Assembly (NCBI GenBank): GCA_020080175.1
Contig: JAGHQL010000209.1
Location: forward strand, 1 to 43,197
DNA length: 43,197 nt
DNA from: Glutinoglossum americanum
Taxonomy: Eukaryota > Ascomycota > Geoglossomycetes > Geoglossales > Geoglossaceae
Direction: 5' to 3'
The notes under the pieces are model-generated. The model was not told the DNA's origin, made no database searches, and was given only the letters and a program-made list of their open reading frames with translations. Made by a program: the position numbers and the translations under genes. Positions 12,906 to 40,704 of the stretch are shown here, piece after piece (position 1 is the first letter of the stretch; each line of letters starts with the position of its first letter).

Positions 12906-12973
12906 ATGTAGAGTCAGTGGGTGGTGATGTCATCTGTTGGGTGCTTTCATTAGCGTTTTCATCACGGGTGGAT

Positions 12974-13067
12974 GCATTTTCAATTCTGCTTGAACCAACG
13001 TTGAGGGTCTAGTAAACGGTGCGTTTTCGATTCCGCCTGAACCAACGTTGAGGGTCTAGTACACGGT
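12974..13067 (+). repeat. 47-bp tandem duplication
   Basis: 12974-13020 and 13021-13067 are two adjoining 47-bp copies sharing GAACCAACGTTGAGGGTCTA. They differ at five positions, four of them transitions with A or T in the first copy, the direction expected of RIP-like C-to-T change. Confidence 0.9.
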
Positions 13068-13614
13068 GGCCGGCCCCACTCCAAAGAGTCCGCAAACTCT
13101 CTAACTAGTCTCGAAAGTGCTTCTCTCGCCTGAGACGCAGGTGGTGGAAATAACGTTTAGTAAAGGCAGAGGAGGAACCTGTTACTCCCTATAATGGATC
13201 GCGAGTAACGCGTCACCACCCCCCGCTGCTGCTTCTCTCGCTCCTTCTATAATTAAATGAGAAAGATATTGCTTTTCCCCCGTATCGTTCTGTCATGCCA
13301 CGCACGTTTCCGCAGTTTAGCAATCGAGCGATGCGATTCCAAATACTCCTCACGGATGCGGGTGTTCCGACTAGAAGCGGCGCCAATCGGGAGAACCGTG
13401 TTGGTGACTAACGGGTGGCTGTGTCCCGCCTCAACACCAAAGAGGGATCGATCGAACTCGGCTTCGGCTTTGTCGCGACCGGCCTTTTAAGTCTCCAACC
13501 GCGCATTCGAGTTTGATTCCCGTTACACAGTCGCGCAGCATGCGATATGCTACTGTCGAATAGGCCTGTCAAGAGCAACCTCGGACGATTTTACCCCAAG
13601 AAAACATCTCAAGC
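13068..13614. other. Upstream region of the cupredoxin-b561 gene
   Basis: No gene supported. GTTTGATTCCC near 13512 vaguely resembles a tRNA B-box but no cloverleaf forms around it. The leader before 13615 is A-rich (CCCAAGAAAACATCTC). Confidence 0.4.
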
Positions 13615-14846
13615 ATGCTGCTGGTCGCTTCGGCTTTAACGAGCTCGCTCTTTGCGGCGGGGGTCGTCGGAAAAACCATCAGCGTCGACGTGGGGAAGGA
13701 TGGGCTTGTGTATGATCCCGACACGATCGTGGCGGCGGTGGGCGACCAGGTTCAGTTCGCCTTCTATCCTCTCGTAAGTCGAGTGCTCGCTGGGTTTCCC
13801 CGTGCGGATCCGTCTTCTGTTCTATCGCGACGCCGTTGAGCTGGAGCTGGCGCTGACTGTCGCTTTTTCCAACAGGACCACACGGTCACACAGTCTGACT
13901 TCGGTAGCCCGTGTGACTCGAACGGGGGCATTAACTCTGGTGTTGTGTCTGGGGGCTCGGGAAGTTCGGTATAACCGACTCGCCAACTGAACCTTGGACG
14001 TGCTAGAGCTGATGACGGGCTATAGAGCCAAGTCTTTGCTGTGGATATCAACGACACGAACCCAGTGTGGTTGTACTGTGCTCAAGTCGGACACTGCCAG
14101 GCTGGCATGGTGGCTGTTATAAACCCGTAGGCGATATTCGTGCATATACGCAGCCTGCTGCAATTTGCTTACGGTGTTCTATTAGGCCGAGCGGAGGCGA
14201 TACCTTAGCCGCATTCAAGGCAAACGCGAAGAACGCGATGGGTGGCGCTGTGCCTGGAGGTGTGACTGGCGGTAGTTTCGTCGCACCTGGATCCGTAGCC
14301 ATCACTTACTCCGGCCCCAGCCCTCAGAAACTCCGCGCTGTCCGCATCGCGCACTGCGTCCTCATGACGCTCAGCTTCCTTGTCCTCCTGCCCCTCGGTG
14401 CCCTCAGTACTCGCGTCTTCAACTTCCCCTCCCTCGCCGTCTCCCACGCCACCGCCCAGCTCGCTTCCCTCACCCTCGTCCTCCCCGGCTTTGCGCTCGG
14501 GATATATTTCCTCAAGACCACACACCAGTCTTATGGTTCGCAACCGCACTTTATCCTAGGAACCACTGTCGTGGCAATGCTCCTCCTCCAGCCCATTTTC
14601 GGCTTCATCCATCACTCCCTCTTTCAAAAGCTCGGGAGGAAAACGTTCGCCTCCTACCTGCACATCTGGTGGGGCCGCGTCATCTTCATTCTTGCTCTTA
14701 CGAATGGTGCACTTGGGCTCAAGCTCGCCAACAGTATGTTTGGAGACCAGAAACAAGCCATTATTCCTTATTCGGTTGTGGCGGGTATTGTGGGCGTACT
14801 CTATATTGCGGTGCTTGTGCAAGTGGAGATGAAGGGCAAGACGTAG
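13615..14846 (+). CDS. Cupredoxin-cytochrome b561 fusion, membrane redox protein (4 exons)
   Basis: Exons 13615-13773, 13876-13968, 14026-14126 and 14186-14846, all GT-AG and in phase, give about 337 aa. Residues 1-19 form a signal peptide. Residues 20-117 are a small fungal cupredoxin (KTISVDVGKDGLVYDPD; DHTVTQSDFGSPC; VWLYCAQVGHCQAGM) with type-1 copper ligands His55, Cys102, His107 and Met112 and a likely disulfide Cys66-Cys108. After a Gly/Ala linker, residues about 168-330 form a cytochrome b561 / ferric-reductase membrane domain: RIAHCVLM, SHATAQ, QPHFILG and YLHIWWGR hold candidate haem ligands His174, His205, His239 and His277. Fungal b561 domains are normally fused to a DOMON (CDH-cytochrome-like) domain; here a copper domain holds that place. 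Expected role (inference): passing electrons across the plasma membrane between cytosolic ascorbate-like donors and extracellular copper or iron. The linker PPSGGDTLAAFKANA is the usual end of such cupredoxins, so the fusion does not look like a mis-joined pair of genes. Confidence 0.85.
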
Positions 14847-16370
14847 GTGTGGAGGTATGTGCAAATTTGCGTGTGCGGGCGGGATCTAAAGATTGTGGAT
14901 GATCCTGTGAAGGTAGACGCCGTAGGACGTAATTATGTTCGCCCTTGAAGCTAAGAGGGCGGACATGACTGAAATACTCTGCTAATTCTTCGGGAGGACT
15001 ATCACAGAGTTCCTCACATTTGTTGCCTTTTTATCTAGCATAAGCTTGTCTTTTGTTTCTAGCCTGTGACCCTGAGTCCTTGCCAGGGGAGGGAACCGCT
15101 AATGAAGTATAATATAATATAATGTATCTGATTTATTCCATGTTATTTCGACGGGACATTCTGGGCTGATAGGTTAGCCGACCTATCCCGTTGGGATAGG
15201 GGATCTTGGTGAACGATTCCCTTGGGATGGATGTGCTAAATTCGCTAGATGGGCTGACCAGCGAATAGCACTACCATCTCAAGTGAGAACTTGTGACGGC
15301 AGAAGTTGGGGACATCTCCTAGGCGCGGTCCGAGACAGGCTTGCCAATAGCGAATTTTATATAAGGATTTGGGTCGCCGTCTGGCTAGGGTATTGAACGA
15401 TTTCGAGTTTCTAATCAGAGAACTCGAAGCCCCACAGCTGTACCTGCTCCTTGGGTACGAGTAGTTTCCTGATTAACCGTCTTTCAATCATACTAACCGT
15501 TAGACACATCTATGCTCCGCTGCAACTTGTTTCAGCAGGTCTTAATACGAGTGATTTAGTTAACTTCTGAGTTTCCTTCCTAGAAAACAGTACGTCAACA
15601 ACTGCGATGTGGAATTGGTTAGAATATATAGGTCGGTGATTTGGAATATTTCTGGTTTAACCTTGCTCTTTGCGAGAATTTGACAGAATTTGACGGGTTT
15701 TGGCACGAAGGACCACTTGTGGTAGTCGCTGCTTTTATGATAACCTGGGCGGTTGATGCCTATTGCATGCTAATTTAGGCTTAGAGATCTCCTCTCAGAG
15801 ACTCTGTGCTTAAGTCTTAGGCGTTGGCTAACCTAACTTGGGCAATTAGCGGCTGTTACTCTTTCCCCAGTTTTAGATACTCACTTAACTGGAACTTTAA
15901 AACAGCAACCACTTTAAGTTAGAGTCGAGAGATTTTCAGATTAACTACTCACAACAGCCTCAGGAAATCCGTTTATTTTAGAACTCCTTTTCGAGGAGTA
16001 CAGGCATTCCAGGCACATGGAACGACATCCTTCCTGTCCGTGCCGATCTCAGACATCAATAGTCGCATTGGGTGTTTGGTGCTCTTCCCGATGGTCCTTC
16101 ATTTTTCTAACCACTTTTGTATGCGAGGCTCATGACCCAGACCTTAACAGTCAACTTTAGCCGACCTGTAGACAAACACCCGACCATCAACAGCCTCAGC
16201 CTCAGCCTCGCCTGCAATTTTTTCCAGGCCGTATTCTTCTATTATCGACGACGCTTAGTCCATACGGCTAACCGAAGCGCAGTCTTGCCTATTCAGCAAT
16301 TCCAACGCTCATCTGACTAGTTTAGGCTGGAGATTAGCCTTGATAGCGTCGCCTAAAAAGCCTGGCTGAC
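14847..16370. other. Intergenic, one short perfect hairpin
   Basis: No gene supported over 1.5 kb. CCTATCCC (15182-15189) and GGGATAGG (15193-15200) form an 8-bp perfect stem with a 3-base loop, preceded by GATAGGT...ACCTATC (about 15169-15187), which shares an arm with it. An AT run at 15108-15123 may be the polyadenylation area of the fusion gene. C-rich leader sequence precedes 16371. Confidence 0.4.
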
Positions 16371-19193
16371 ATGGCGGCTCGTTATGTTCAAGACCCGCTT
16401 TCCTGGCCACAGAACCTCGAAGCTAACGGCAAATTTGGCGCTGCTGGCCTACATGACATTCTCGAGAAGAGAATAGCAGAATTCTTTCCAATAGATGTTG
16501 AATCGGGCGGTCTCACTCCTCCCCGATACACCGAGGTGGATATGCAGCAGATCTCTCAGCTCCTTCGCCAGATGGACTGTGTCGAATGGAGTCGGGTGCC
16601 ACGAATATACACCGTCTTGAGAAGAATTGGAAAGCTGCAGTTACTAGACTCTTTCATAGAGCAGGGGATAACGGATATCTGCTTTCCATTTTCTGCGGCC
16701 ACTCTTCCACAATCACTTGGGCCATCTTCGCGAGCAGCGTTTGCCAGGACACAATCCGTAGTTCTCACAAAAGCAATAGACTTGGAGAAAGGTGAACTTG
16801 GCGAACACCGATCCTTTGCAGACGACGAACGTCTGCCTTTTGAGGCCAGAGCAATTCTAGGGTGGGGGGCTAATGGTCAGGTAGATAAGGTGTTGAGTTT
16901 ACTAAGCTTTAATGAATATGCACGAAAACGCATTCGCCGCAGGGTTTTGCCTGAGGTTACGAAGGCCTACGAGCGAGAACTACAGATCCTCAAGCGGCTG
17001 AGTCACCGTCACACTGTTAAGCTCATAGGGAGTTATACCGATTCCTCTTACTTTGGGCTAATCATGTCTCCTGTGGCGGACTGCCATATGGGTGAATTTC
17101 TTGCTATGAGCCTAATGTCTTCTGATAAGAGATCGTTGCTGAGAAGTTTTTTCGGATGCCTGGCAACCGGGTTATCATATCTACACGATAGCCAGATCCG
17201 GCATAAAGACATCAAGCCTTCCAACATCCTCGTCAAAGGAGAAAGGGTTCTTCTCACAGATTTTGGTTTATCCTTTGATTGGAGTGACTTTTCAAGGAGC
17301 GAAACGGAAGGTCCAACTGGCAGGACTCTGAAATACTGTGCACCGGAAGTTGCGGCGTGTGGGCCTCGCAACTCATCCTCTGATATTTGGTCATTGGGAT
17401 GCGTGTTTCTTGAAATGGCTGCTACGTTGAAAGGAGAGACTGTTGCGACCATGGACAATTTTTTCAAGAGTTATGGCTCCGAGAATTCGTGCTTCCATGG
17501 GAATCCGGATGCTATCCGAGCGTGGATGGAAAGACTCAAACTGACTGAATCGGAATGTGGCTGTGTGCCGCTTGAGTGGGTTGAAAACATGCTGAATCAT
17601 GAACGCAACCTGCGCCCAAGTGCAAGACAGCTGATGCAGACAATTCAATCCAGTCAGCTGTGCATGAGCTCGCGTGTGGTCTTCATTGGAATTTGCTGCA
17701 ATGATGACTCTGCGTCGTTCCGTGGTGATATAGACTTGGGAGGAGTCACCTTGATGGAAGACGTTCCCAATTACCCAGCTGACGTAACTCAAAAGGCTCC
17801 GCCGAAGGACAGGAAGCGCGCTCTATCTATGGCAAAGCATAACAGTCGTCAAAACAACGGAACAATTGTCAGAAAGCTTAAGAAACCTGATACTTCTACG
17901 CTGTTTAAGGCTATAAGGAGTGGGGATGCCAGAAGGCTGAGCTGCCTTATGAACAGCCAGCTTGACCTGAATGCTCGACAAGATAATGGAACTACCCCTC
18001 TGCATTGGGCGGCAGAGAATGGAAACGAGGATGTGGCGAGGATGATTCTTGATAATGGAGCGGAAGCAGATGCCGTGGACAAACGTGGACAAACGCCCTT
18101 AATCTTAGGAGCTTGTAAGGGACATGAATTATTTGTTCGACTAATGCTGGATCGGAACGACGTGGATCCCAACTCCAAAGACGCTGACTCGTCGACACCC
18201 CTCTCAGTTGCAGCAGAGAACGGTCATGGTGGCATTGTGGGAATGCTACTTGGGTGTGATAACATTGATCCAGATTTGAGAGATAAAGATGGCTCATCGC
18301 CTCTCTCGTGGGCTTCGTGGGGTGGTCATGTCTCCGTCGTAAAATTATTATTGCAGCATAAGGGTGTCGATCCAGATGTGAAGGATATCACGTGGGGTCG
18401 AACACCCTTATCGTACGCAGCGGAGAGAGGATATAGGGATATAGTACAGCTGTTACTGGAGAGGGATGGCGTCGACCCACAAGAGATGGGCCCGGAAGGT
18501 GGAACGCCCCTTTCGTGGGCCGCCCGCGAAGGACAGCCAGCCGTCGTTGAGTTGTTGCTCCAGAGTAGGCGTGTAAATCCTAATGTCGCGGCCTTAAGGA
18601 CTGGGAGAACACCCCTATCATTTGCTGCGGAGATGGGACACTTGGCCATAGTTCAGCTTTTACTTGCGAGAGACGATGTTGACTTTGAGGCTACAGATGT
18701 TGACGGTGGGACCCCATTATCGTGGGCTGCGTTTGCCGGGCAGTTGGCAGTGGTTGAACTACTGTTGCAAAAGGGGGCAAATCCTAACATCAAAGATCGT
18801 AAATGGGGTGGAACTCCCTTTTCATTCGCCGCGGAGAGGGGACATCAAGGAGTGGTGAAGCGGCTACTGAGTCAAGATGACTTGGACGTCAATACAAGGG
18901 ATGACCGCGGCCAGACTCCACTCCTTCTCGCAGCTGCAGAAGGCAGGGAAGGGGTCGTGCGACTTCTTCTCCAGAAAGAAGGCATTAAACCTGACACTAA
19001 GGACGGCAGAGGCCGAACCCCACTGTTTTACGCGTCGAAAAAGGGATACTTAGAAATTGTGAAACTCCTACTGACTCAAGAGGGCGTGGATCCCCAATCA
19101 AAGGATACGTCAGGCAAAACGCCACTGGAAGTCGCAAAACTAGCTAGGAAGAATGGCGTGGTGACTTTGCTGAGGAAGCATACTGAAGCCTAA
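16371..19193 (+). CDS. Protein kinase with C-terminal ankyrin repeats
   Basis: Single exon, 940 aa. Residues about 160-430 are a Ser/Thr-type kinase: glycine loop GWGANGQV (164-171), candidate ATP lysine K186 in YARKRI, alphaC-like YERELQILKRLSH, catalytic loop IRHKDIKPSNILV with HKD instead of HRD (278-280), LTDFGLS (DFG 297-299), CAPEV (APE 324-326) and DIWSLGCVFLE. All residues needed for catalysis seem present. From about residue 510 there are about 12 ankyrin repeats (TPLHWAAENG, TPLSYAAERG, TPLSWAAREG and so on), ending at residue 940. In the middle the repeats alternate between PLSWAA and PLS[YF]AAE forms, which suggests expansion by two-repeat units. Residues 1-160 are an uncharacterised helical region. 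Kinase-ankyrin genes of this kind are frequent in ascomycete accessory regions; substrates are unknown. The relic of an NLR gene follows. Confidence 0.9.
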   Translation: MAARYVQDPLSWPQNLEANGKFGAAGLHDILEKRIAEFFPIDVESGGLTPPRYTEVDMQQISQLLRQMDCVEWSRVPRIYTVLRRIGKLQLLDSFIEQGITDICFPFSAATLPQSLGPSSRAAFARTQSVVLTKAIDLEKGELGEHRSFADDERLPFEARAILGWGANGQVDKVLSLLSFNEYARKRIRRRVLPEVTKAYERELQILKRLSHRHTVKLIGSYTDSSYFGLIMSPVADCHMGEFLAMSLMSSDKRSLLRSFFGCLATGLSYLHDSQIRHKDIKPSNILVKGERVLLTDFGLSFDWSDFSRSETEGPTGRTLKYCAPEVAACGPRNSSSDIWSLGCVFLEMAATLKGETVATMDNFFKSYGSENSCFHGNPDAIRAWMERLKLTESECGCVPLEWVENMLNHERNLRPSARQLMQTIQSSQLCMSSRVVFIGICCNDDSASFRGDIDLGGVTLMEDVPNYPADVTQKAPPKDRKRALSMAKHNSRQNNGTIVRKLKKPDTSTLFKAIRSGDARRLSCLMNSQLDLNARQDNGTTPLHWAAENGNEDVARMILDNGAEADAVDKRGQTPLILGACKGHELFVRLMLDRNDVDPNSKDADSSTPLSVAAENGHGGIVGMLLGCDNIDPDLRDKDGSSPLSWASWGGHVSVVKLLLQHKGVDPDVKDITWGRTPLSYAAERGYRDIVQLLLERDGVDPQEMGPEGGTPLSWAAREGQPAVVELLLQSRRVNPNVAALRTGRTPLSFAAEMGHLAIVQLLLARDDVDFEATDVDGGTPLSWAAFAGQLAVVELLLQKGANPNIKDRKWGGTPFSFAAERGHQGVVKRLLSQDDLDVNTRDDRGQTPLLLAAAEGREGVVRLLLQKEGIKPDTKDGRGRTPLFYASKKGYLEIVKLLLTQEGVDPQSKDTSGKTPLEVAKLARKNGVVTLLRKHTEA

Positions 19194-26696: not shown

Positions 26697-29600
26697 CTAC
26701 AAAACACGCCACCTGACCTTATATGTCTTGGCGATCACATCCTTGTATGCATTTCTCTTTGTGATCATGTAAGTCCCTACTTTTATGAGCTCTCCAGACG
26801 AGAGTTCCTTGAGAAGTATGCCATCTAAAAACCCCAAGTTATGGTGAAGGCACACTGCAAAATTTTTGGTAGTCGGAATGAACGAGTCCACCCAGGTGTC
26901 GAGGTCAACATTCTTATGAACCTGCACGAGAAGAGAGGCAGGCTCACTCAAATCTGGAGCCACAATGTCGCAGGTTAGGTTCCTGTTCTCGGGATGGTTT
27001 TGGCCAGAGTATGACAAGATCCCCGCTTCACGGATCTCGACGCTTTTATCGGGAAGCATCTCCCATGTGGACACCGCGGGGTGGTCTGTGCCTGTGTACC
27101 CCTCTGAAAAGCTAGGTGCTCTGCTGAGAAGAGAGGAAGTGAACGGGGCCATTGACCCTACACCTCCTCGTTGCACCTCACCGGAATTTAGGGACAATAC
27201 GAGCATTTCTAGCAGTTCTCCTTCGGCCAGAGAAGATGCGTAAAAGTCAGCACCAATCTTCTTGGCGGCCTCCCTCAGAAAAGCCAGGGGATACTGATCC
27301 GGCGATTCCGGGGGGATTTCTTCGATATCGGGGCCCTTGGGATTGTTGTACCAGTCCACAACGTCAATCGCCGACATGATTGCTTTAGCACGATCCTCTT
27401 CACAATATCTTTGATTGCCTAGGGTCAGAATAGTGGCTCGTGAAGCGTTGAGCAGGAACTCCAATCCGCTCAGATCAAGCAATTCCCATAGTTGTTCAGT
27501 CGCCTTAGATCGGACTTCAATCCGCATTGGGGTATGAGTCGATTGGAGTTTGCCGGATGCCCCGAGCTCCGGAGACTCTTCTGCTCTGCTTTGAGATACT
27601 TGGGTAAAATTACCCCCTTCGGCCAGGGCAATCAAGTCATCCATCCCAACAATAGTCTTGCCATTCTCTCCAACCGCCAGGATATTCCAGTCCTTGGTAC
27701 ATAGTCGCATGTCCGGCCGAAGGCACAGTTCTTGAAAAGTCCACAAAGAAGAGAACCAGCCATTCATCAGCTTCTCTGGATTTGCCGTTTGGACTGAGGT
27801 CGAGTCAAATATTTCTAGAGGTAAATCGGCATTCTGCATTGCCAAATCTAGAACTGGCTTAGGTACTTCCGACCCATTTCCTTCCTGCAGATAACGGATA
27901 CTGAGTCGGCGAATAGCGGCTTGCAGACCTTCCCAGCTATCAATATCATTGAGCCAAGCTAGAGCGAATTTTGCACGCCGAAATATCCTGGCTTGTCGTC
28001 CGATTTCTCTCTTCGCAATTTTGATGAGATCCTGGTCGGTAGGCTTTTGTGGGATGCATAGGAGATCGAACCACACGTACGGCAAAGCAAATGGTACTGA
28101 AGCGAGTATTTCCGGAAGCTCCTTCACTCTGAATTTGGAATTCTCTGGTATCATCCATCTATTCACGCCGTCAACCCGCACTGGAGGAGAATTAGGGATC
28201 CTCCAACGACCCCACGTGTGACTTATAGCAGTGTACTGCACTTCACCTGTGATTTTCCTAGCGACTACGGTGCGTCTCTGCTTGACGTCCCATAGATAGT
28301 AAGGCAAGTCGTCTTGGGCGCCAGTGTCTTCCAGCCAGTGGCAAGAGGATATTGCAGCACCAATCTTAGATCCAGGGTCTCCATGAATAGCTATTGCCAG
28401 TCGTTCTCGCTCGTCTGCCGACAAGTTAATATTTTCCGCACCAAGGGTAATATTTTGAGCTGTTGTCGCAGTTGATCCCACACATTGGCTATCTTCCTTA
28501 ACCATTACGCCCCGTATCAGAGGCGCCGTAACTTGGCCGCTACCGGCCACGGTAGCCCCGTTCCCATTTACCCGGTAGACCTTAGGGTTACTCGGCCGTG
28601 GATTCGCGTCCCCTGGTCTCGGTTCTAGGCCACACTCTTTGAGAAGCGACTTGTAGCATGTTGTGGCGATTCGCTGACAAGCTGCAATTTTCGCTGCTCG
28701 CATTCGTTGTCCGGATAATACCTTCCTGGATAATTGCCCAGAGTAGTGGTAGGGTAGAAACTCGACCTGATACAACAAAAACATAAAGGTGCAATACGGG
28801 GTCCCCAAGGCACCAGAAATGAATCTCTGCTGATAGTATCGACGCTCTTCATCAGCGATAGCTGATTCTGATATCTTTAGAATTTGGAAAGTGTCATCAT
28901 CCAGAATCCCGGCACCGGCAGCCCTCTCGAAGGCTTGGAAGGCCTTCTCTGAGGTTGACTGATCGTCGATTTCGCCATTCCACCACTCGATGAGAAGCCG
29001 GGCTGAGTTGAGCTGCGGCGTGGATAAAGTTGATCTGAACTTTTGGTGGTTGATACTATCCGATACGAAGCTTCGCAACAACGTATTCCAATTTTCAAAA
29101 GCCCTCCTGTATCCAGGCAGAGAGTCATCTTCGACGCAATCCCTCCGTACACCATGGAACTGTTCCACCATGAGCCCAAGGCTGTAAGAGTCGGAGTCTT
29201 CGTGTCCCTCAATATTCTCGAAGTCTGCTAAATCTACACGCTGGCTAGCCTCTAGTATTGCCTCTCCGCTCGTTGTAGCCTGTAAAATGGGGTCAGCTGT
29301 AGTCAGATCCCCCGGTTGGCCGACGTGTTCTCTTATGACGGTGAGTCCTCCAGTCACCTGCTGGTCTCCAACGGAAAAGTTCGCCGCTGCAGCGATATTA
29401 GCCCATCGTTGCAACGGCTTCGATGTAGGGAGTCGAAGATAAATTTGCAACAAGCTTTCCAGGCCATTTACAAGGGCGAGTTGGGGGATCGGTTCGCATT
29501 CAGCTTGAGTCTTTTCATAACTAAAAGGAGTGTTGAGAAAGATGTGGGGCGGAAGCTGTTTTGCGCAGGTCATCACCGTAAGCGCTACGAAAGAATTGAC

Positions 29601-29783
29601 AGCTGGCTGGAGGCCATCCCTTCCACCATGATTTGGCGGTTGATTACCTGGCGTCCTCTCCCGACTGGCGCCGAGAAATAGATCAAGCTCTTGCGCGAAG
29701 TTCGAAATACCCTCTAGGAAGTTGGAGGTAGATATTCGCCCGCGCTTCACGTCTTCCATGAATGTGGCCACATTACCCGCCAT
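26697..29783 (-). CDS. HET-domain protein, long form (family a)
   Basis: Single exon, 1028 aa, from ATG 29783 (MAGNVATFMEDVKRG). HET domains act in heterokaryon incompatibility, where they trigger death of fused non-self cells. HET motifs: YTAISHTWGRW (about 517-527), YVWFDLLCIPQ (569-579), IGRQARIFRRAKFALAWLND (594-613), and WFSSLWTFQELCLRPDM near 685. Residues 1-500 are a helical N-terminal region I cannot assign. Residues about 430-455 hold a Gly/Asn/Thr-rich segment (VGSTATTAQNITLGAENINL) that breaks the helical pattern. The C-terminal part (NFAVCLHH, then GILLKELSSGELIKVGTYM) matches that of the HET gene at 36976-39081, a paralogue shorter by about 330 residues. It looks intact and is the outer left member of the mirror-ordered HET cluster. 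Confidence 0.9.
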   Translation of the reverse strand: MAGNVATFMEDVKRGRISTSNFLEGISNFAQELDLFLGASRERTPGNQPPNHGGRDGLQPAVNSFVALTVMTCAKQLPPHIFLNTPFSYEKTQAECEPIPQLALVNGLESLLQIYLRLPTSKPLQRWANIAAAANFSVGDQQVTGGLTVIREHVGQPGDLTTADPILQATTSGEAILEASQRVDLADFENIEGHEDSDSYSLGLMVEQFHGVRRDCVEDDSLPGYRRAFENWNTLLRSFVSDSINHQKFRSTLSTPQLNSARLLIEWWNGEIDDQSTSEKAFQAFERAAGAGILDDDTFQILKISESAIADEERRYYQQRFISGALGTPYCTFMFLLYQVEFLPYHYSGQLSRKVLSGQRMRAAKIAACQRIATTCYKSLLKECGLEPRPGDANPRPSNPKVYRVNGNGATVAGSGQVTAPLIRGVMVKEDSQCVGSTATTAQNITLGAENINLSADERERLAIAIHGDPGSKIGAAISSCHWLEDTGAQDDLPYYLWDVKQRRTVVARKITGEVQYTAISHTWGRWRIPNSPPVRVDGVNRWMIPENSKFRVKELPEILASVPFALPYVWFDLLCIPQKPTDQDLIKIAKREIGRQARIFRRAKFALAWLNDIDSWEGLQAAIRRLSIRYLQEGNGSEVPKPVLDLAMQNADLPLEIFDSTSVQTANPEKLMNGWFSSLWTFQELCLRPDMRLCTKDWNILAVGENGKTIVGMDDLIALAEGGNFTQVSQSRAEESPELGASGKLQSTHTPMRIEVRSKATEQLWELLDLSGLEFLLNASRATILTLGNQRYCEEDRAKAIMSAIDVVDWYNNPKGPDIEEIPPESPDQYPLAFLREAAKKIGADFYASSLAEGELLEMLVLSLNSGEVQRGGVGSMAPFTSSLLSRAPSFSEGYTGTDHPAVSTWEMLPDKSVEIREAGILSYSGQNHPENRNLTCDIVAPDLSEPASLLVQVHKNVDLDTWVDSFIPTTKNFAVCLHHNLGFLDGILLKELSSGELIKVGTYMITKRNAYKDVIAKTYKVRWRVL

Positions 29784-30500
29784 TTTTATGATAGCCAGTA
29801 GTTATATTATCGCTAGCAACGCCAGCAGTACCGTATTGCAAAATGATAACGAAATAACTCACTGGTATGTTCTTTCTTGAAAGCAGGCAAGGGAAATAAC
29901 TACAAGTTGTAGCTGTCTGGAGGTCACTCGGGCGGCTCGGGTAAGCTTATGTAAGGCGCGACATGTGGTAGTTAATATCATTGCGCGGGCGCTATCACCA
30001 TAATATCATCGAAGCGAACCGGACCTCATGGGGCATGCTCAGCCCGATTGAGATTTTACGGGAATCCAATCCAGCGGCATTGGGAGTGTTATTGCTGCAT
30101 AGAGTAAGACACGGGTATTATGGATTACAGTCTTCGTTCCAATCGGAAGTCCCCTTTATTCTACCTTCTCGTTTTAGGTCTAATCGGTCAATGCCTAATT
30201 TAAGGATGTGGGATAGCTGGTTTCTCGGCTGCCCCACGGTGGCATATTGTAACATATCCTCTGTCCCCTCCCTAGCACAAGATTGATGCTCAAACTGTCG
30301 CGTTACCCTTGTTTGACTCAGCAAACGTGAAAAAGCAAAGTGTGCCGTACTGAAAGCGCCAACTAGATTCTAGAAATTATAGCATAAGGGTATTCCATGT
30401 GCAAAGCTAAATTCTTTTAGTCCTAGAGAAAGCTTGTAGTCATGGTGGATTCTAAGGCGTCTTTTGCTATTTCGAGGCTACATCGTTATTAGCTCTACTT
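29784..30500. other. Intergenic, promoter side of the long HET gene
   Basis: No gene supported. Should hold the promoter of the long HET gene (minus strand) and the 3' end of the four-TM protein gene. Confidence 0.4.
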
Positions 30501-31883
30501 TCAATCTTTGAGTCGAGAGGGCTCACATTCGGTCTGTGAAGATACAGGCGCGTCCGAGCTTAAAGTATTGCTTCCAGCGATAAGGGATGGATCCTTCTGG
30601 GCGAGCGGGAAAGTGCTCCTGCGCACAACCGCCGAGTTCGGCCCTGGCTCCAGATCTCTCTTTCCGTCTGGTACCATCTCCTGACCTAAGAGTTTCGCTA
30701 GAACCTCTTTACCGTGTGCGTAACTGTCACAGTAAGTTGAGGTCAAACTCGCCATCAGCCTAGTATCACCTTCTCCACTTAGTAGTACAGTATTCTCGCC
30801 CATATTTGCTATAGGCCTAGTCCAGCCTCTAGCAACGGCTTTGGCTGTCGAAGTCCAGCTCTGACCGCCATAATATCGATAGATATACAGTGAGGCGCAA
30901 CAGTAGAGCTGATAACAGAGCCAGACATACTGTAGCTCTGTTGGCATCAAGACAACCGAGCAAAAAAGTCCAACTGGGAAGACTAGTCCGAATCCAACTA
31001 CGGTGATTATCTGTACAACTTCGCGAAAGCGGCCTCTGACGGGGTGCCCATAATGGCGAAAGAATTGAAGAATTAGAGAAGTGTTTCCCTCCACGACTAG
31101 GAAGCCATGTTGTGGGAGATATATTTCAAACTTCGATTCTGATTCATTGACGGTATCTGAAGCTGGAACGGTGATCATATGTTGTCGGGGTATCGTGAAA
31201 AAGGCATTAAGGAGCTTCAGGGTAGCTGGTATAAACCACAGTGAGGCAAAGCTGGATCTCCAGATACAGAGGACTACAACACCAGTTACTAAACCGGCAA
31301 ACTCGGAAAGAAGTAGAGCGGCGTAAATGCGTAAGGTGACCGCTCCGGTTTCGTTCCCGATTTGGTGAGACAATAAACGCTTGTGCCCAGAGTCATTAGT
31401 GATCCTCAACGTGCTAACAGCAATCCTCGAACGTATCTTCGCTGGTTTGGAGCAGGCCTCAATATTGGTACTGGTTGGATTTTCGGATGGAATTTCCATC
31501 AACGACACAGCCTCTACCAACAAACCATTCCGCACATGCTCGCGTGATTGCGTGCCATTGATATGCAGCGTGTATTCAAGCTTGCTATCGTGGAAGAAGG
31601 CTGTTCCTAGCATATGGCCAAGCTCAGAGCCTCGAAATAGGCCGTTCACAAAGAATCGATCAAGTGTCTTCAGTGATGCCTTATATAACGGGCCCCCCAT
31701 AGGCATTAAAAATGCAACCTCGATGACATCGTGGAAGGTGGTAATCTCGTTATAAAACCTTTGGGGCCAGAGAAGGCGTTGGAACAAATGTTCGGGAGCA
31801 GCCTCTGAACCAATGTAGCCAATCACGGTACCCAGGGCGCTCAATATGGGCCCGTTACCCGAATTAGCCGTCTGTACCGGCAT
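30501..31883 (-). CDS. Four-TM membrane protein of unknown role in the HET cluster
   Basis: Single exon, 460 aa. Residues 1-180 are soluble-looking (LLWPQRFYNEITTFHDV; LEYTLHINGTQSREH). Hydrophobic segments lie at about 183-207, 211-230, 288-312 and 318-337, with a soluble loop of about 55 residues between the second and third (KFEIYLPQHGFLVVEGNTSL). The C-terminal 120 residues are hydrophilic and Ser-rich. There is no signal peptide. I do not recognise the family. It lies between HET genes a and b, transcribed like a and divergent from b (about 630 bp between starts). The matching interval in the other arm of the cluster has no such gene. Confidence 0.75.
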   Translation of the reverse strand: MPVQTANSGNGPILSALGTVIGYIGSEAAPEHLFQRLLWPQRFYNEITTFHDVIEVAFLMPMGGPLYKASLKTLDRFFVNGLFRGSELGHMLGTAFFHDSKLEYTLHINGTQSREHVRNGLLVEAVSLMEIPSENPTSTNIEACSKPAKIRSRIAVSTLRITNDSGHKRLLSHQIGNETGAVTLRIYAALLLSEFAGLVTGVVVLCIWRSSFASLWFIPATLKLLNAFFTIPRQHMITVPASDTVNESESKFEIYLPQHGFLVVEGNTSLILQFFRHYGHPVRGRFREVVQIITVVGFGLVFPVGLFCSVVLMPTELQYVWLCYQLYCCASLYIYRYYGGQSWTSTAKAVARGWTRPIANMGENTVLLSGEGDTRLMASLTSTYCDSYAHGKEVLAKLLGQEMVPDGKRDLEPGPNSAVVRRSTFPLAQKDPSLIAGSNTLSSDAPVSSQTECEPSRLKD

Positions 31884-32510
31884 TTCCTTTGGAGTGTATC
31901 GCTACCTGTGGAAGTCCCAGGAAGGGTTAGCCCTATTTAATATATCTGTACAGAGGAGAGGAGTTACCGTAAGTTTGCCTGGGTTAGCCGCCAGCAAAGT
32001 AAGGCTTCAATACGTGACGGGGCTGCATCAGCGCAGAGCCCTTTGCTCTGTGCGGTTATGATTTGTATTGGCCAGAGAGCGAGAAGGGCGAAATCCGACG
32101 TGGCGGTGGTCAAGCGAGTCGGAGGTTAGTCATCCTACATTACCCCGCAATATCCCTTGCTTTGGTGGGATTGGCCAGACTCGGCCTCGCCAGGCCTCCG
32201 TGATTTTCTCTGAATCTTGTACTACGGAAAGCAGAATGCGACTGAGATTTCATATTATACAAAGGAGTGACCCTGAAGTTATATATCCCACTTAGGCAAC
32301 CAGCAAGTGCTAAACAATACGCGATTACTCAGCAGCGGCCCAAGCCTTAGAGTAAGCCACAACCAGATCGTCCTTCAGCACACCATACGCAAGTTCACAT
32401 TAAGTCGGTCTTAGAATTGCATCACTCGATATATTTATGTATGGCATCGCTATAGCCTGCCGTATCCCGTGCCGGCAAGGTCAACACAGTGCTCAATTCC
32501 CAATCCATGG
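31884..32510. other. Divergent promoter region
   Basis: Lies between the divergent TM-protein gene and the HET b gene. No gene supported; no clear TATA or operator was recognised. Confidence 0.4.
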
Positions 32511-34367
32511 ATGACTATGAACCACGCTTCGGAATGGAGTTTGAAATGGTCTAATAGCCACGCCATTGGCAAGTGGCCTCGCAGACTTCTCCATGTCCCT
32601 ACAATGACATCTTACGAATGGCAGCCTGGCCACAAATATGGACCTTATATTGGGCCACAATATAACGCTCTGTCTTACACCTGGGGCAGATACAGGCTGA
32701 CGACAGAGGAAATCCAACAGATGCCTCAGGTGATAGCTATTGGAATTAGTGGCATCACATGGGAGGTCCCTCGAATCCATCCAAATCACTTTACTGCCGC
32801 GGAATTCCAAGCCGCGATACAGCGGGCTATCCACCCAATAGCGACTGGGATACAGATGCTCGCATCCATGGATCAAATGCAAGATTCGCCCTCAGTTGAT
32901 TTCTTGTGGCTTGACATCGCCTGTGTTGACCAATCACCGAATAGTGCCACAGGCGCGGCCGAGATCGGAAGGCAAGCGATGATATTCCAAGGAGCCGATG
33001 CAGTCTTTGTTTGGCTCGTCGGCCACACAGAAGTGCAGTTGTCTAGCTGCCTTGCATCACTCTTCCGTGATGCAGATATAGCCCAAAAAAATCACACCAC
33101 ACGCCCCGCGCACGAAGCGGGTCAGCGTTGGTCTGGTTCCACAACAGATCCTGGAGACACTTCGAAATCAAACCTTCACGGCGATGAGCCATGGCTTAAC
33201 GATGCCATCACACAACTAGACCTTCTCCTTTCAGATGGGTGGTTTTCCTCTCTCTGGACGTTACAAGAAGCCTTTCTCTGCTCGCAAGCTATCCTCATCT
33301 CGCGAGATGCTGAGACGGTCGATATTTTCACAAAAACGCTCGACGGCCTGTTCCGAGCCTGCAACATTCTCCACACCGTCTGCCTCCGGAGCATCCGGCT
33401 CAAACTCGGTGGAGGTTGCACCGCCCACCCAGCAGAAGAGTCTCTTATCCAAAAGTCGACCAACAGCGGCCTAGCTGCCCTCGCGATGCGAAACCCCATG
33501 TCTCTATATACCGTTGCAAGATATCGACAAACCACATTTCCTCTCGACCGAATATATGGCATCATGCAAGTATTTGACCTCCGCCTTGGTAAGGCTGCCC
33601 CGGGCGCGGTCCAAACGGATCCTTGGGACCTTCCACAGCTCCAGTTGCAGCTTGGTATTGCGTTACTAGAGAAAGACCCGACCATGAGCCAATTACACAT
33701 ACATGCGACGCGGCCACCGGTGGGACAGGCCTGGCGTGTGAGCGATTCCTCAATTGTACCCGATTTAGTGAACCGGATCCCGATGTTCGGGACGAGCACC
33801 ATATTTGGCGAATACCGAACGAATTGCCACCTTAGCACCAAGACATATAGGAGCCAGACTTGGGGATACTTCGGCGGCATGATTTGCCCGCTTGAGGTGC
33901 TGCAGAGCGCTTGGAAAGCCGCCGAGCAGCAACCTGAATATGCCGCTCCTCTTTCTAGGGGAATAGGGAGCATACAGCAGATTGCACTTGACGCGACGGA
34001 GTTCATCCTACCTGGGGAGCTTTCCGAGGACCCTCCTTTCAATGTTCCAATAAAGAATGGAAGGCACCACCAATTCGGAGATCAGGTCGTAAAAATGGTC
34101 AAATCTCAGTCTTTGGAGGTGTCAGTGCTGTACCTCGGACAGTTCTATGACGAACGCCGCGACAAGATGGATCTTTCGAATAGGCATGGGCGATTCGTCG
34201 GGGACAAGGTCAATATTGGGATCCTTCTCGTAAGGAAAGATGATGTTTGGATTCGCCAGGGCCTCTGCATATGGGATATATCTCCGTTGGATTCAAGGAG
34301 TCCAGTTTGGGCGACGCTTACCTGTCAGTCATTGGATTGGCAGAATCAGCAAGGCTTATTTGGGTAG
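32511..34367 (+). CDS. HET-domain protein (family b)
   Basis: Single exon, 618 aa from the first ATG (32511; an ATG at 32517 is possible). The N-terminal block KWPRRLLHVPTMTSYEW leads straight into the HET domain: YNALSYTWGRYRL (51-63), FLWLDIACVDQ (131-141), IGRQAMIFQGADAVFVWLVG (152-171) and WFSSLWTLQEAFLC near 243. Later come RYRQTTFPLDRIYGIMQVFD, which recurs in diverged form in the neighbour, and a C-terminal domain ending QNQQGLFG. Its closest partner in the window is the HET gene at 34726-36366, placed tail to tail 358 bp away; they share WPRRLLH[VI]P[TS]M, the HET motifs and the DRIYGIMQ segment. Probable role: incompatibility or cell-death trigger. Looks intact. Confidence 0.88.
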   Translation: MTMNHASEWSLKWSNSHAIGKWPRRLLHVPTMTSYEWQPGHKYGPYIGPQYNALSYTWGRYRLTTEEIQQMPQVIAIGISGITWEVPRIHPNHFTAAEFQAAIQRAIHPIATGIQMLASMDQMQDSPSVDFLWLDIACVDQSPNSATGAAEIGRQAMIFQGADAVFVWLVGHTEVQLSSCLASLFRDADIAQKNHTTRPAHEAGQRWSGSTTDPGDTSKSNLHGDEPWLNDAITQLDLLLSDGWFSSLWTLQEAFLCSQAILISRDAETVDIFTKTLDGLFRACNILHTVCLRSIRLKLGGGCTAHPAEESLIQKSTNSGLAALAMRNPMSLYTVARYRQTTFPLDRIYGIMQVFDLRLGKAAPGAVQTDPWDLPQLQLQLGIALLEKDPTMSQLHIHATRPPVGQAWRVSDSSIVPDLVNRIPMFGTSTIFGEYRTNCHLSTKTYRSQTWGYFGGMICPLEVLQSAWKAAEQQPEYAAPLSRGIGSIQQIALDATEFILPGELSEDPPFNVPIKNGRHHQFGDQVVKMVKSQSLEVSVLYLGQFYDERRDKMDLSNRHGRFVGDKVNIGILLVRKDDVWIRQGLCIWDISPLDSRSPVWATLTCQSLDWQNQQGLFG

Positions 34368-34725: not shown

Positions 34726-36366
34726 TTAGCCTAATTGACCTTCAAATAATTCCCACTGTGGGCAAGGCAATTCAGGTTGCTCGGCCAACGAGAAGTCTTC
34801 CCCTGCATTCCACGAGCAAACTCCAACACGTTCCCACCACCCCTCCTCTGGCCGCCGTAGCAGGACTAGCCCAAGAAACCAATTCGCGTAGACGGGTCCA
34901 TACTCTCGCGTCCTAACGAGCGTCTCCCCCAGGAGAAACCAGATTAGGTTGGCCTCCCCGAGGAGGGCCACGAGTGACTTCCCAAGTTCGAACTGTCGAT
35001 TGTCCGGGGGTAGGTTGAATTGCGATAGCCGCGGCGGGAGACGTCCGAGGGTATGCGAGCTGTCGTCTAGCATAATTTTCTGCGGTGTATCCAAGTAGGG
35101 ATCCCAGCGCAGATGCCAGTACTTCAGGAGGTTGGCGAACGGCCAGCTCTTGCCTGATACGCGTATTTGCCCAGATATTGGATGCGTAGTGATCTGACAA
35201 TGAGGTATCTCTGGAGAAGGATGCGATTCCGACGTGGAGGCAGAGAAGGCGGCCGGTGGGTAGTATACCTCGAGTTCTTCGGGCACCCGCGAGTGCTGTG
35301 TGATTCGCCAGCTCTTCCCGTGGGGCGGAGTCTGGACGTGAGTGAACATCTGTGATAGGATGGGTGAGCGCGAGATCAACGCCTTGCCAAACTTATCTTC
35401 TAGCTGTTCAAGCACTGGTTTGTGGTCTGGACTGCTAGAGGAGCCGATATCGAGACCATAGATCTGCATGATGCCGTAGATACGATCCTCTTCGCGGCTC
35501 GTCTTGCGGAAGCGCGCGGCGCCATACTGCATATTTGGGTTGCTGCAGTAGAGAAACTGGAAACCCACTTGCTCAATCATACTGTATAGCTTATCGGCTG
35601 TCTCTTTGATGGAGGGGTCGTGGAAGAACGAGCTATACTTGGTTCGAACGCGTGCGCAGTCTTTGTATATATTCTGGCATGCACTTATCAGCGATGCGAG
35701 GAACGCATTGCCGTCTCTAAAACCTAATAGCACAGGCGAGGCTTCGCGCGACAGAATCATAGCATCCCTTCGAAGGATAGATTCCTGCAGGGTCCAGAGA
35801 GACGAGAACCATGGGTCACTAAAGAGTATTTCAAATGCTCCCACCAACGTCTGGAGACACTGGAGGACGCCGGGACCGGATTTCTCGTAGTGTAACTCCG
35901 GGCCATGTTGAAAGACATCGTCCAGACAGCGCTGCAACTCGCTGGGTGCAAGCCTGTTCAGCCAAACGTATACCCGATGCGCGCCTCGAAAGATCCCAAC
36001 TTGCTTCCCCACCTCGTCCATCTTTACAACATCATCCTCTTGATCGATGCAAGCGATGTCGATCCACACGTACTCCACATCCTCACCGACTCTTTCGATT
36101 ACGCGGCGGAAGGCCTCCACCGTGAAATGCGACTCCTGCACCGCGGGTATCTTCCACGTCGTTCCCTTGATGTCGATTGCGGGGCCTTGGCTAATCTCCC
36201 AACGACCCCATGTATAAGTCAGAATGCCGTAGGGTGGTTCCTTCTGACCTCCGTATGTGCCGCCCCCTTGGCACTCTTGTGAGACCATACTTGGGATGTG
36301 CAGGAGCCTCCTTGGCCATATCCTCGAAACGCTACCCCACCAGCGGGACTCATACTCGCTCCCCAT
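34726..36366 (-). CDS. HET-domain protein (family b')
   Basis: Single exon, 546 aa from ATG 36366 (MGSEYESRWWGSV). IWPRRLLHIPSMVSQE precedes the HET domain: YGILTYTWGRWEI (46-58), YVWIDIACIDQ (99-109), VGKQVGIFRGAHRVYVWLNR (119-138), then WFSSLWTLQESILRRDAM near 185. FRKTSREEDRIYGIMQIYGL matches the segment in family b. The C-terminus (LPCPQWELFEGQLG) corresponds to the end of b. It is about 70 residues shorter, mainly in spacer regions. Divergent from HET a' (36976), about 610 bp between starts. Looks intact. Confidence 0.88.
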   Translation of the reverse strand: MGSEYESRWWGSVSRIWPRRLLHIPSMVSQECQGGGTYGGQKEPPYGILTYTWGRWEISQGPAIDIKGTTWKIPAVQESHFTVEAFRRVIERVGEDVEYVWIDIACIDQEDDVVKMDEVGKQVGIFRGAHRVYVWLNRLAPSELQRCLDDVFQHGPELHYEKSGPGVLQCLQTLVGAFEILFSDPWFSSLWTLQESILRRDAMILSREASPVLLGFRDGNAFLASLISACQNIYKDCARVRTKYSSFFHDPSIKETADKLYSMIEQVGFQFLYCSNPNMQYGAARFRKTSREEDRIYGIMQIYGLDIGSSSSPDHKPVLEQLEDKFGKALISRSPILSQMFTHVQTPPHGKSWRITQHSRVPEELEVYYPPAAFSASTSESHPSPEIPHCQITTHPISGQIRVSGKSWPFANLLKYWHLRWDPYLDTPQKIMLDDSSHTLGRLPPRLSQFNLPPDNRQFELGKSLVALLGEANLIWFLLGETLVRTREYGPVYANWFLGLVLLRRPEEGWWERVGVCSWNAGEDFSLAEQPELPCPQWELFEGQLG

Positions 36367-36975
36367 CCGATCTAACAGAACAAGATATAAAACACTGGTA
36401 TTAGCGGTGTTGACCTAAGCACGACAGGACGAACGTAGACAGTGTCGGACTCAAGATTTCGATATGATAACACCAATCGCAGAACAACCGGAAGGCTGAT
36501 AAAGTGTCCTATCTATTAGGTAAGTTATTTCTCTTGGAGTTTTTCTTATTGGCCGATGGAGTCAGTGTGCTGAAGCGACACCATCGAATTGGAATGCAGG
36601 TATGTGGTCTCGTTACAGCCTCGCCTTCTCAAACATTTAATTCGTGAAAGGCAGCTATCGAGAACCCTTGGCATCAAGGTCGCGCGTTACAGAATAAAAC
36701 TACCGTAATACTATGGTCGCAGGCACCACTGCTCCACTTGCTGGCTCTTTCCAGAGTGGTGCGGGACGAATAATTAAAAGGGCTGGGCCTGCTGTTCTTC
36801 TATAGCACCTAAACCAGCGATTACTTCGTTACAACGATATAACTAACGAAGGTTCCGGCCAATAGCCTAGCCGCACCAGCAAGGCTTAACCGAGGACCAG
36901 AAGTCTGAAGACATCTCTGTTTGGTAGGATACCAGGTCAAAAGTGTTGGTTCCCATCATCCAGGCCAATTCAGGC
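36367..36975. other. Divergent promoter region of HET b' and a'
   Basis: No gene supported. In the other arm of the cluster the equivalent interval (29784-32510) is about 2.7 kb and contains the TM-protein gene. Confidence 0.45.
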
Positions 36976-39081
36976 ATGTCAGAAACGATCGGAGATCAAG
37001 TCGAGCTCTTTTTAGGTAGCACTGCTTCTGAAGTCGGCCAGGCAGCAAATAGAGCTTCCTTCAACCGCAGTCGTTGGCTCGAAATCCTCAAAAGCCCATC
37101 TAAATTGGCGGAATTTTTACCCCGCTTGTCAACTACCCAGTTAGGTTCTCACCAGCTTCTCCAAGGATGGTTACTCCTTAGGCTCGAAGACGAGTACTTC
37201 GATTCAGAGGCAAAAGTAGCCCAAGAGCTCGTCGGACTCCAGCCTGAGGCTCCAAATAGTCGGCAATCCTACCACTATCATCTAGCCAATCTTCTAAAAC
37301 AGGAGTTCTCCCAGCCGGCACAGGATTTGCCTTCAGATCTCTATCTTGCGATCTTACATCAGTCTCGGCGAGATGCTGCGCTGTACGCCGCCAGCTATAG
37401 GCTGGCATGCTCTTGTTACAAGGCAGCCTTACGTCCGACCTTACCCCAGGGACTAACTAACAGCCCTCAGCCGCTCCGACCACGATATGGCGCCTCCATC
37501 GACCCCTGCCCGTGGCTAGAACGCAAACCCCAGGAAGGGGACTTACCATTCTACCTATGGGATGTCAAGGGAAAAAGAACCAGAGAGGTCAGTGAAATAA
37601 TCAAGAGTACTGGCAAAGTCCCCGACTACGTGGCAATCAGCCACACCTGGGGTCGCTGGAGGAAGGACGATGAGCCGTGGGTTTCGTTAGACGTGCCGTG
37701 GAAGATCCCCCAGAATGGGAGGTTCGAGGTCGTGGACCTGCCACACACTCTAGAACGCTTTCCATGCAAATACATCTGGCTCGACCTTCTCACCATTCCG
37801 CAGGAGGATTCGCCTCCGTCGATGCTCGAGATTCAGCAAGCGGAAATCAAGAGGCAGGCCACCATATTTCGGAACGCGAGCACCACCGTAGCCTGGCTGA
37901 ACGACGTCAGCACATGGGTTGGCCTACCCGCTGTGATTCGCTATCTATGCTTTAACTTTCTCAAAGGCTCCGTCCCCGATGACGAGGACAAGAGCGAGCT
38001 CGACTCGCTGCTAGACGCTGCCTCGACAGCCGCTGGTGGTTTCACGGAGCTTTTCCAGACACACGAGAGAGAGGGGGTGAACCCTGAACTCCGGCAGCCA
38101 AACCCGTGGTTCACGTCACTGTGGACCCTACAGGAAACGTGCTTGCGGCCCGACATGTGGCTTTGCGATGCAACGTGGAACTTTGTGGCTGCCTCGGAAG
38201 AAATGCCTGTGGCTTTGAATGACTTGATCGCTCTTGTTCTGGTCAATCATCCAACTATTTCATCCTCAACAGCAGTACCCAAGGGTGCCCGGGAGCTCGC
38301 ACGACTATTCCGTATAACCGGGCTGATAGGTTTGCTGCAGCTATCACGGCACTCCATCATCACAATGGGCAACGGAAGGCACTGCACCAGCCGCCGTGCG
38401 GAGGCCATAATGTCCGCGGTAGGAGCAACCGAATGGTTCGGGACAGCGAGTGATAGCCTCGAGGAGGACCTAGTGCTCGAGCTCTATCCCCTTGCTTTCG
38501 TGAACGAAGTCCGCGAGAAGCTCGGATCCGCATCCTTCTTCTCCTCGACGCCACTGGGGTGGGAATTCCATTACGTTCTCCGCAGGTTCTGCAGTGACAA
38601 ACGTAAGATACCGTATGGATTTGAGGCATTAGGTTCTCTTTTGCCATTCGGTCCCGGCGCTCATAACATCGCATTTGACACTGAATCTAACCCTCACATG
38701 GCCGAGCATCCCTCTCTGGATAGTTGGACAGTGGAAGATACTGGGTGCGTCCGCATCCTGCAAGCGGGTATTGTATCTTCGTCTATAGAAGGGCCGTTAG
38801 TTGGAGACATTCGTTGTATTCTCGTTGCCCCGTTAGCAGATAATGACGAGAACCGCCTTGTCGTTCAAAAAAACGAAGATCTGCACAGCTGGATCAAAAG
38901 GTATAAGCCAGACATGCCTAACTTCGCGGTCTGCCTCCTCCACTCTCCGCTCGCCAGTCGCGGCATCATTTTGAAGGAGATCGCACCTGGCTTTCTCCTC
39001 AAGATTGGAAGCTACTGGCAGATGGAAAGGCCGGGCTATGAGGGGCCCAAAACCCAGATGGTTAATTGGTTGGTTGTCTGA
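36976..39081 (+). CDS. HET-domain protein (family a')
   Basis: Single exon, 701 aa from the first ATG (MSETIGDQVELFLG); the frame is open 11 codons further up without an ATG. A helical N-terminal region of about 180 residues leads to DLPFYLWDVKGKR and the HET domain: YVAISHTWGRWRK (218-230), YIWLDLLTIPQ (266-276), IKRQATIFRNASTTVAWLND (291-310) and WFTSLWTLQETCLRPDMWLC near 375. The same order and wording (DLPYYLWDVK, AISHTWGRWR, LWT[FL]QE-CLRPDM, NFAVCL, ILKE) occur in the long HET gene at 26697-29783, its paralogue. The Gly/Asn-rich segment of the long form is missing here. Looks intact; outer right member of the mirror-ordered cluster. Confidence 0.88.
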   Translation: MSETIGDQVELFLGSTASEVGQAANRASFNRSRWLEILKSPSKLAEFLPRLSTTQLGSHQLLQGWLLLRLEDEYFDSEAKVAQELVGLQPEAPNSRQSYHYHLANLLKQEFSQPAQDLPSDLYLAILHQSRRDAALYAASYRLACSCYKAALRPTLPQGLTNSPQPLRPRYGASIDPCPWLERKPQEGDLPFYLWDVKGKRTREVSEIIKSTGKVPDYVAISHTWGRWRKDDEPWVSLDVPWKIPQNGRFEVVDLPHTLERFPCKYIWLDLLTIPQEDSPPSMLEIQQAEIKRQATIFRNASTTVAWLNDVSTWVGLPAVIRYLCFNFLKGSVPDDEDKSELDSLLDAASTAAGGFTELFQTHEREGVNPELRQPNPWFTSLWTLQETCLRPDMWLCDATWNFVAASEEMPVALNDLIALVLVNHPTISSSTAVPKGARELARLFRITGLIGLLQLSRHSIITMGNGRHCTSRRAEAIMSAVGATEWFGTASDSLEEDLVLELYPLAFVNEVREKLGSASFFSSTPLGWEFHYVLRRFCSDKRKIPYGFEALGSLLPFGPGAHNIAFDTESNPHMAEHPSLDSWTVEDTGCVRILQAGIVSSSIEGPLVGDIRCILVAPLADNDENRLVVQKNEDLHSWIKRYKPDMPNFAVCLLHSPLASRGIILKEIAPGFLLKIGSYWQMERPGYEGPKTQMVNWLVV

Positions 39082-39514: not shown

Positions 39515-40704
39515 TACTGCTAACCACCCCTCCCACCACCACGATCTTTGCGTGCTTTTCATACTCTATTCCGTTGAGAGGCGGAGCCTCGCTACAATGT
39601 CACTAGGCTGATCCCTACCGCTTGTTAGTCGATTATTTGTCATACGTGCTTATATTGGCACCATGAGCTTTTTATAGTAGTTCTACTACGCGGCCTTCTG
39701 CTATTGTTGCCTTATGTGGCATTACTACGGAATGCTGATAGGGGTAAAATTTCTCTCATCTTGTAGGCCAGATAGGGCTTAGGATGAATTGCAGTTAACG
39801 TTCACTTTGTGCCATGTAGCCTACTCGCAGTGCTTTTAGGTCCCCAGGGATCTGTCCACGGTAGCAATATATCAATTTTCTATGTATTTCCTTTCACTCG
39901 AGCGCAACATGAGGAGGGATCCCGTCGGAGAGTCTTTCTTGAGGACGTGCAACCACCATCCGGATTCATTCGGTCGAAGATTACTTGATGTCCGGCCAAA
40001 GGTTCGTGGAGTAGTTCACATCCTATTCCCCGATAACACGGTGCGCGATCAGTGAGATGTATTCGTACCAGCGAAATTGCCCAGAATTGTTCCGTTAGAA
40101 AAAGACCAGTTCGGATAATCACCCGCCTAAGACGAGTGCTCTTATTAGATAGAGGATAAGATTTCTCGTGAATATGAATATATAATCCTATGCTTACGGC
40201 CAATGATCTCATCGGGGGACACTAAATATGGTATTTACACGATTCCTTAGACTTGCGACTAGGATCGCGCATCGAATAGGGACCATTTAATTAGTGCCCA
40301 TTTGTACGCGAGAAAAGCGGCGCCAAAGCCACCATCACAACATAGGCTACGGGTTGCCGTTTTAAACTCTCGTCGAAGCGAATACCTGCTTCTTATATGG
40401 GACCACCGAGATAGAGTGGGGGTAGTTCTATTTGTATTCATCTGAGTTGTAGTTAGCGATAAGCATTAAGGTATCTAGCATAGAAGGCGGTGTCTCATGA
40501 AGAGGCTGCGCACTTAATTATGGAGAAGTTAGGTCTGCATTGGTTCATAGAGTAATGGTCGTCGCTGATAGGATGGAGCAGTAGCGGGGTTGAATTTGCC
40601 TGCAACAGCATCTTCCCGAGTCACCCAGCATCTCCGTGACGGCAACAACCTTCTATTAATTCCACACCCCAAATCGAGCCCATTCGTCCTACTCATCGGG
40701 GCCC
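39515..40704. other. Intergenic, nothing recognised
   Basis: No gene supported over 1.2 kb. Short frames on the minus strand (39880-40212, 40259-40441) have no motifs. Confidence 0.35.

Follow-up and report, generated by a model that had tools for sequence, protein, structure and literature searches.

A Predicted Cupredoxin-Cytochrome b561 Fusion in the Fungus Glutinoglossum americanum as a Candidate Transmembrane Oxidoreductase

Blue-copper proteins are usually soluble electron shuttles, and cytochrome b561 proteins are transmembrane haem wires. A locus of Glutinoglossum americanum raises the question of whether a fungus has joined the two in a single polypeptide chain and, if so, what such a protein would do. 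The locus occupies positions 13615 to 14846 of the window, i.e., the whole 43,197-nucleotide stretch of contig JAGHQL010000209.1 that was analyzed.

The original prediction described this gene as a set of four in-phase exons. In silico splicing at the GT..AG introns reproduces that model and yields an ORF of 1014 nt, which corresponds to 337 amino acids and a stop codon, all on the plus strand. Exon 1 (13615 to 13773) begins with the ATG at 13615, the first one in frame past the upstream stop, and encodes the start of the cupredoxin domain preceded by a likely signal peptide (residues 1 to about 19), as suggested by a hydropathy peak over residues 1 to 19. Exon 2 (13876 to 13968) contains the codons for the His55 ligand (13879 to 13881) and for Cys66 (13912 to 13914), and exon 3 (14026 to 14126) those for Cys102 (14077 to 14079), His107 (14092 to 14094), Cys108 (14095 to 14097), and Met112 (14107 to 14109). 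Exon 4 (14186 to 14846) encodes a Gly-rich linker (residues 119 to about 165) and five hydrophobic segments and ends with the stop codon at 14844 to 14846. The exons are separated by intron 1 (13774 to 13875, GTAAGT..CAG), intron 2 (13969 to 14025, GTATAA..TAG), and intron 3 (14127 to 14185, GTAGGC..TAG), so that exons 1 to 3 end in phases 0, 0, and 2, respectively. As all three introns carry an in-frame stop, the frame is continuous only when all three are removed. Each intron also has a branch-like site of the CTNAY type, namely, CTGAC, CTGAT, and CTTAC, located 23, 17, and 18 nt from the respective 3' ends. For all four exons, a codon score derived from 8 further large ORFs in the window gives positive values in the frame proposed (0.09 to 0.24, the highest value being that of exon 1) and negative values in both alternative frames; the introns score at most 0.02 in every frame and are not coding-like.

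The weakest point of the gene model is the intron 3 donor, GTAGGC, which looks poor against the fungal consensus GTAAGT/GTATGT. Retention of intron 3 would produce a predicted soluble form that stops after residue 118, where the cupredoxin domain ends. This stop is only a hint, as it arises automatically in any phase-2 intron beginning with GTAG or GTAA, and we rate low the idea of intron 3 retention as a designed switch between secreted and membrane forms, because the stop is dictated by the phase and the donor sequence.

The copper half of the protein has a complete type-1 ligand set (His55, Cys102, His107, and Met112). All four residues are found at the originally predicted positions, and the His, Cys, His, and Met ligands of plastocyanin fall on them in the alignment with PDB entry 1pcs, the top one (E=0.22) of 9 PDB sequence matches to the cupredoxin part. 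Profile scores are low: PF02298 matches with E=0.0095 (16.4 bits versus a cut-off of 20.8) and PF00127 with E=0.14 (13.0 bits versus 21.2), the failed cut-offs being those of two specific families and not of the cupredoxin fold. Among the NCBIfam models, pseudoazurin (E=0.009) and plastocyanin (E=0.039) are matched, both under the curated cut-off. At E≤5, Pfam lists four families for this part, with PF02298 in first place and PF00127 in fourth, separated by the unrelated AcetylCoA_hydro (0.03) and Cas_csx3 (0.048). One reversed and nine shuffled sequences of the same composition served as controls; at E≤1, none of the 10 matched a cupredoxin family in either Pfam or NCBIfam, and unrelated families were matched by 1 of 10 in Pfam (best E, 0.17) and by 4 of 10 in NCBIfam (best E, 0.043). 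The pseudoazurin value is therefore modest by itself. Residues 20 to 135 contain two cysteines that are not ligands, Cys66 and Cys108. Plant phytocyanins (PF02298, the subthreshold match listed above) are characterized by a C-x4-H-C-x3-M motif and an extra cysteine pair, both of which are shared with the protein described here; phytocyanins contain a disulfide, and Cys66 and Cys108 could form one of this type. Phytocyanins are soluble or GPI anchored and have no b561 part. Judged by the alignment register and the ligands rather than by the score, the N-terminal domain is very probably a cupredoxin.

The membrane half is recognized by the Pfam model Cytochrom_B561 (PF03188, residues 174 to 297), which scores 29.4 bits in the full protein and 31.6 bits on the b561 domain alone (cut-off, 23). 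Hydropathy reveals five hydrophobic regions past the N-terminal one, and the four candidate haem histidines suggested by the original prediction, His174 (14352 to 14354), His205 (14445 to 14447), His239 (14547 to 14549), and His277 (14661 to 14663), stand up well: each of the first four regions has one of them inside or adjacent to it, in successive helices, with a b561-type spacing of 31/34/38. His174 and His239 are located within hydrophobic runs, and His205 and His277 are one residue ahead of theirs. The residue numbers given for Dcytb imply a spacing of 36/34/39, and the same source, in its available sections, assigns H1 to H4 to TM1 to TM4 in DOMON-type CG8399 proteins and to TM2 to TM5 in other groups (PMC10691727). 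The layout found here is that of CG8399 and not the TM2-TM5 one. The protein also matches DUF2427 with E=0.00035, which is under the cut-off of that family. The Pfam listings include no DOMON or CDH-cytochrome model, either for the full protein (E≤1) or for the separate domains (E≤5), with HMMER filters discarding most matches above about 0.1. A single-sequence structure model of exon 4 is of low confidence (pLDDT, 54.6; pTM, 0.30); a PDB search with it returned 35 matches, none of them at E≤0.001 and none a b561 structure, and phmmer likewise matched no b561 structure. In sum, the domain pair put forward originally holds, with b561 above its cut-off, the copper ligands aligned, and no DOMON or CDH-cytochrome model listed; a domain search of the spliced 337-aa protein bears out its b561 part and leaves the cupredoxin families under their cut-offs.

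The charge distribution suggests how the protein would sit in the membrane. The loops between TM1 and TM2 and between TM3 and TM4 and the C-terminus have net charges of +1, +3, and +1, respectively, and the two remaining loops have none, which, by the positive-inside rule, places the charged segments inside and the N-terminus outside. Residues 156 to 171, directly before TM1, carry a net charge of +3 and would be outside in this topology, counter to the rule. With the N-terminus outside, the inner face of the membrane would carry His205 and His277 and the outer face His174 and His239. The labels used for the cytoplasmic haem in the available part of the insect study, where it is coordinated by H2 and H4 (PMC10691727), correspond to the former pair.

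At the presumed inner site, the basic residue at H4-7 is retained as Lys270; according to the sections available, this is the only one of five ascorbate-contact positions that is wholly conserved among CG8399 proteins (PMC10691727). Two of the three basic positions that bind ascorbate in Dcytb are nonbasic here (H2-7 is Phe198 and H2-3 is Ala202), and three positions conserved in CG8399 are altered, with the basic H1+23 replaced by Asn197, Arg at H3+21 by His260, and Glu at H2+21 by Phe226. The donor may thus belong to the ascorbate class or be of another kind. The outer ascorbate/metal residues of Dcytb are also replaced: Phe at H1-3 by Arg171, His at H2+22 by Leu227, Tyr at H3-3 by Ser236, and Phe at H4+25 by Met302, the last position having been left out of the CG8399-group analysis in the available text of the insect study (PMC10691727). 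In the same text, H2+22 is nonpolar in CG8399 proteins, the Dcytb residues for ferric reduction are conserved to a limited extent, and a proposal is made that assigns the acceptor to the DOMON domain (PMC10691727). Loss of the outer residues is what would be expected if the acceptor site had shifted to an extra domain, and this argument, applied to the protein described here, would make the copper domain both acceptor and exit. The +3 stretch before TM1 and the altered ascorbate-site residues leave the anatomy untouched.

Several known systems are built on related plans. The closest in layout are the DOMON-b561 (CYBDOM) proteins, such as Arabidopsis CRR and insect CG8399/SDR2, which likewise combine an N-terminal extracellular redox domain with a b561 core and, in the available portions of the two papers, are proposed to form an electron bridge from the cytosol to the outside (PMC10784552, PMC10691727). 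Their outer domain is a haem-binding DOMON, in contrast to the type-1 copper cupredoxin seen here, and several cytoplasmic residues conserved in CG8399 are different here. As no DOMON was found, the protein is outside CYBDOM membership; to judge by the sequence, its anatomy is a real variant of the CYBDOM type, with copper apparently taking the place of the DOMON haem. The original prediction noted that fungal b561 domains are usually paired with a CDH-cytochrome or DOMON domain, and one example agrees: Imp1 of Magnaporthe oryzae, which, like the present protein, has an N-terminal redox domain and a C-terminal b561 and differs in that the former is a CDH-like cytochrome of the DOMON superfamily and the protein is localized to an organelle, as described in the accessible part of the report (PMC6281275). 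Cupredoxins and transmembrane haem helices also share a chain in DspNOX of the sponge Ephydatia muelleri, whose extra helices match DUF2427, the same family that is matched below threshold here; unlike our protein, DspNOX is an NADPH oxidase that has two cupredoxins at its C-terminus along with PAS and IDP regions, and the available text makes the sponge b561 assignment in species other than the cupredoxin-bearing one (PMC9524095).

The view that this architecture has not been described holds for the open-access literature, where, among the matches listed and in the portions of the papers available, no cupredoxin-b561 fusion appears and DspNOX comes nearest in design. “Cytochrome b561” and “Plastocyanin-like” are separate fungal entries in the available part of PMC3841193, and b561 goes unmentioned in the main text of PMC10714830. 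The architecture may already be present, unnamed, in automatic annotation. The collections searched for relatives consisted of viruses, prokaryotes, and plasmids and are silent on fungi. Scanning with the protein picked up 2 pattern-matching stretches in viral contigs and 28 in prokaryotic genome contigs, with no relatives in either set. Neither the cupredoxin nor the b561 codon pattern occurred in the viral contigs, and a looser b561 pattern identified 7 loci in the genome contigs, none of them a relative (best tblastn E, 0.26). The plasmids yielded no relative by tblastn. PF03188 was not found in one Streptomyces genome or in 14 control genomes, a comparison that is uninformative.

The genomic neighborhood was surveyed through the 109 window ORFs of at least 90 codons, 20 of which were scanned against Pfam, with a family found for 8: a PHO4 transporter, a BAR/PH protein, an ankyrin kinase, four HET proteins, and a PNP-type phosphorylase. 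Taken by themselves, these families suggest that the window is fungal and most likely derives from a filamentous ascomycete. The possibility that the gene belongs to a redox or metal neighborhood was discarded, as nothing tied to iron or copper was recognized among the neighbors (20 of the 109 ORFs having been scanned). The window contains no Rfam match or tRNA. The HET-domain ORFs are clustered at 26700 to 29801 (minus strand), 32415 to 34364 (plus), 34729 to 36414 (minus), and 36928 to 39078 (plus), and among them is a 466-aa ORF (30504 to 31901, minus strand) that has no Pfam match at E≤0.01. The phosphorylase-type ORF (PNP_UDP_1, E=1.5e-15) is located downstream of the HET genes, at 40660 to 41718; domains of this type are found in fungal NLR-like proteins as well. 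A single long ORF (16347 to 19190) downstream of the cupredoxin-b561 gene encodes a protein kinase domain with many ankyrin repeats after it, and upstream of the gene, positions 12966 to 13069 contain an imperfect direct repeat whose identical core of 24 bases begins at 12991 and again 47 bases later at 13038.

The protein is probably a single-chain transmembrane oxidoreductase that follows a CYBDOM-like plan, with a type-1 copper domain in place of the DOMON haem. The likeliest electron path is suggested by analogy with DOMON-b561 proteins, for which the available portions of the two papers propose a flow from cytosolic ascorbate through two b haems and an outer haem domain to iron (PMC10784552, PMC10691727). 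The protein would reside in a secretory membrane, whether the plasma membrane or some other, and its cupredoxin would face outward. A cytosolic donor, either ascorbate- or erythroascorbate-like or of some other kind, would pass electrons to the inner haem (His205/His277), from which they would move to the outer haem (His174/His239), on to the type-1 copper, and finally to a one-electron acceptor outside the cell, for example, ferric or cupric chelates, quinones, or a secreted copper oxidase. Electron transfer between haem and copper, with its direction and partners, is what we infer from this comparison.

The same anatomy, a copper domain joined to b561, would be expected if copper were a cargo rather than a relay, with the cupredoxin-like domain capturing Cu(II), the b561 part reducing it, and Cu(I) being handed to a CTR-type importer. 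A buried type-1 electron-transfer site binds copper tightly, and the His-Cys-His-Met set together with Cys66 and Cys108 resembles such a site; further, no copper transporter was recognized among the 20 of 109 window ORFs scanned. Thus, even though b561 proteins are able to act as ferric reductases, according to the available sections of the two papers (PMC10784552, PMC10691727), we consider metalloreduction for copper uptake unlikely.

The low profile scores to the matched copper families could also mean that the cupredoxin part is redox-dead and works as a cell-wall or ligand-binding module, leaving b561 to carry out ordinary ascorbate-dependent reduction; with the four copper ligands and the spare cysteine pair all intact, this seems very doubtful. 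The gene might, alternatively, give two products, a small secreted cupredoxin from transcripts that retain intron 3 and a b561 protein starting at Met136 or later, in which case the fusion would be a minor or misread form. Such an arrangement would be in line with a donor so far from the consensus and with the stop that directly follows residue 118 upon retention, but that stop, being automatic past a phase-2 GTAG/GTAA donor, is a weak sign of regulation. Moreover, the codon score and the frame run through all four exons, the CTTAC site is located 18 nt from the end of intron 3, and the single 59-nt intron separating the cupredoxin end from exon 4 offers scant space for a terminator and a promoter, all of which renders the two-product arrangement improbable.

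The reading preferred here remains the haem-to-copper oxidoreductase. We tentatively suggest, with somewhat less confidence than in the single-chain enzyme itself, that it represents an unnamed class of fungal oxidoreductases, in which a haem-haem-copper wire would lead from the cytosol to the outside and type-1 copper would replace the DOMON haem. A natural fusion of this kind would tie a fungal cupredoxin to a set redox partner and would allow copper-haem transfer across a membrane to be measured in one protein. It would also be a candidate component of fungal extracellular reduction, in iron and copper uptake or in providing secreted copper oxidases with electrons.
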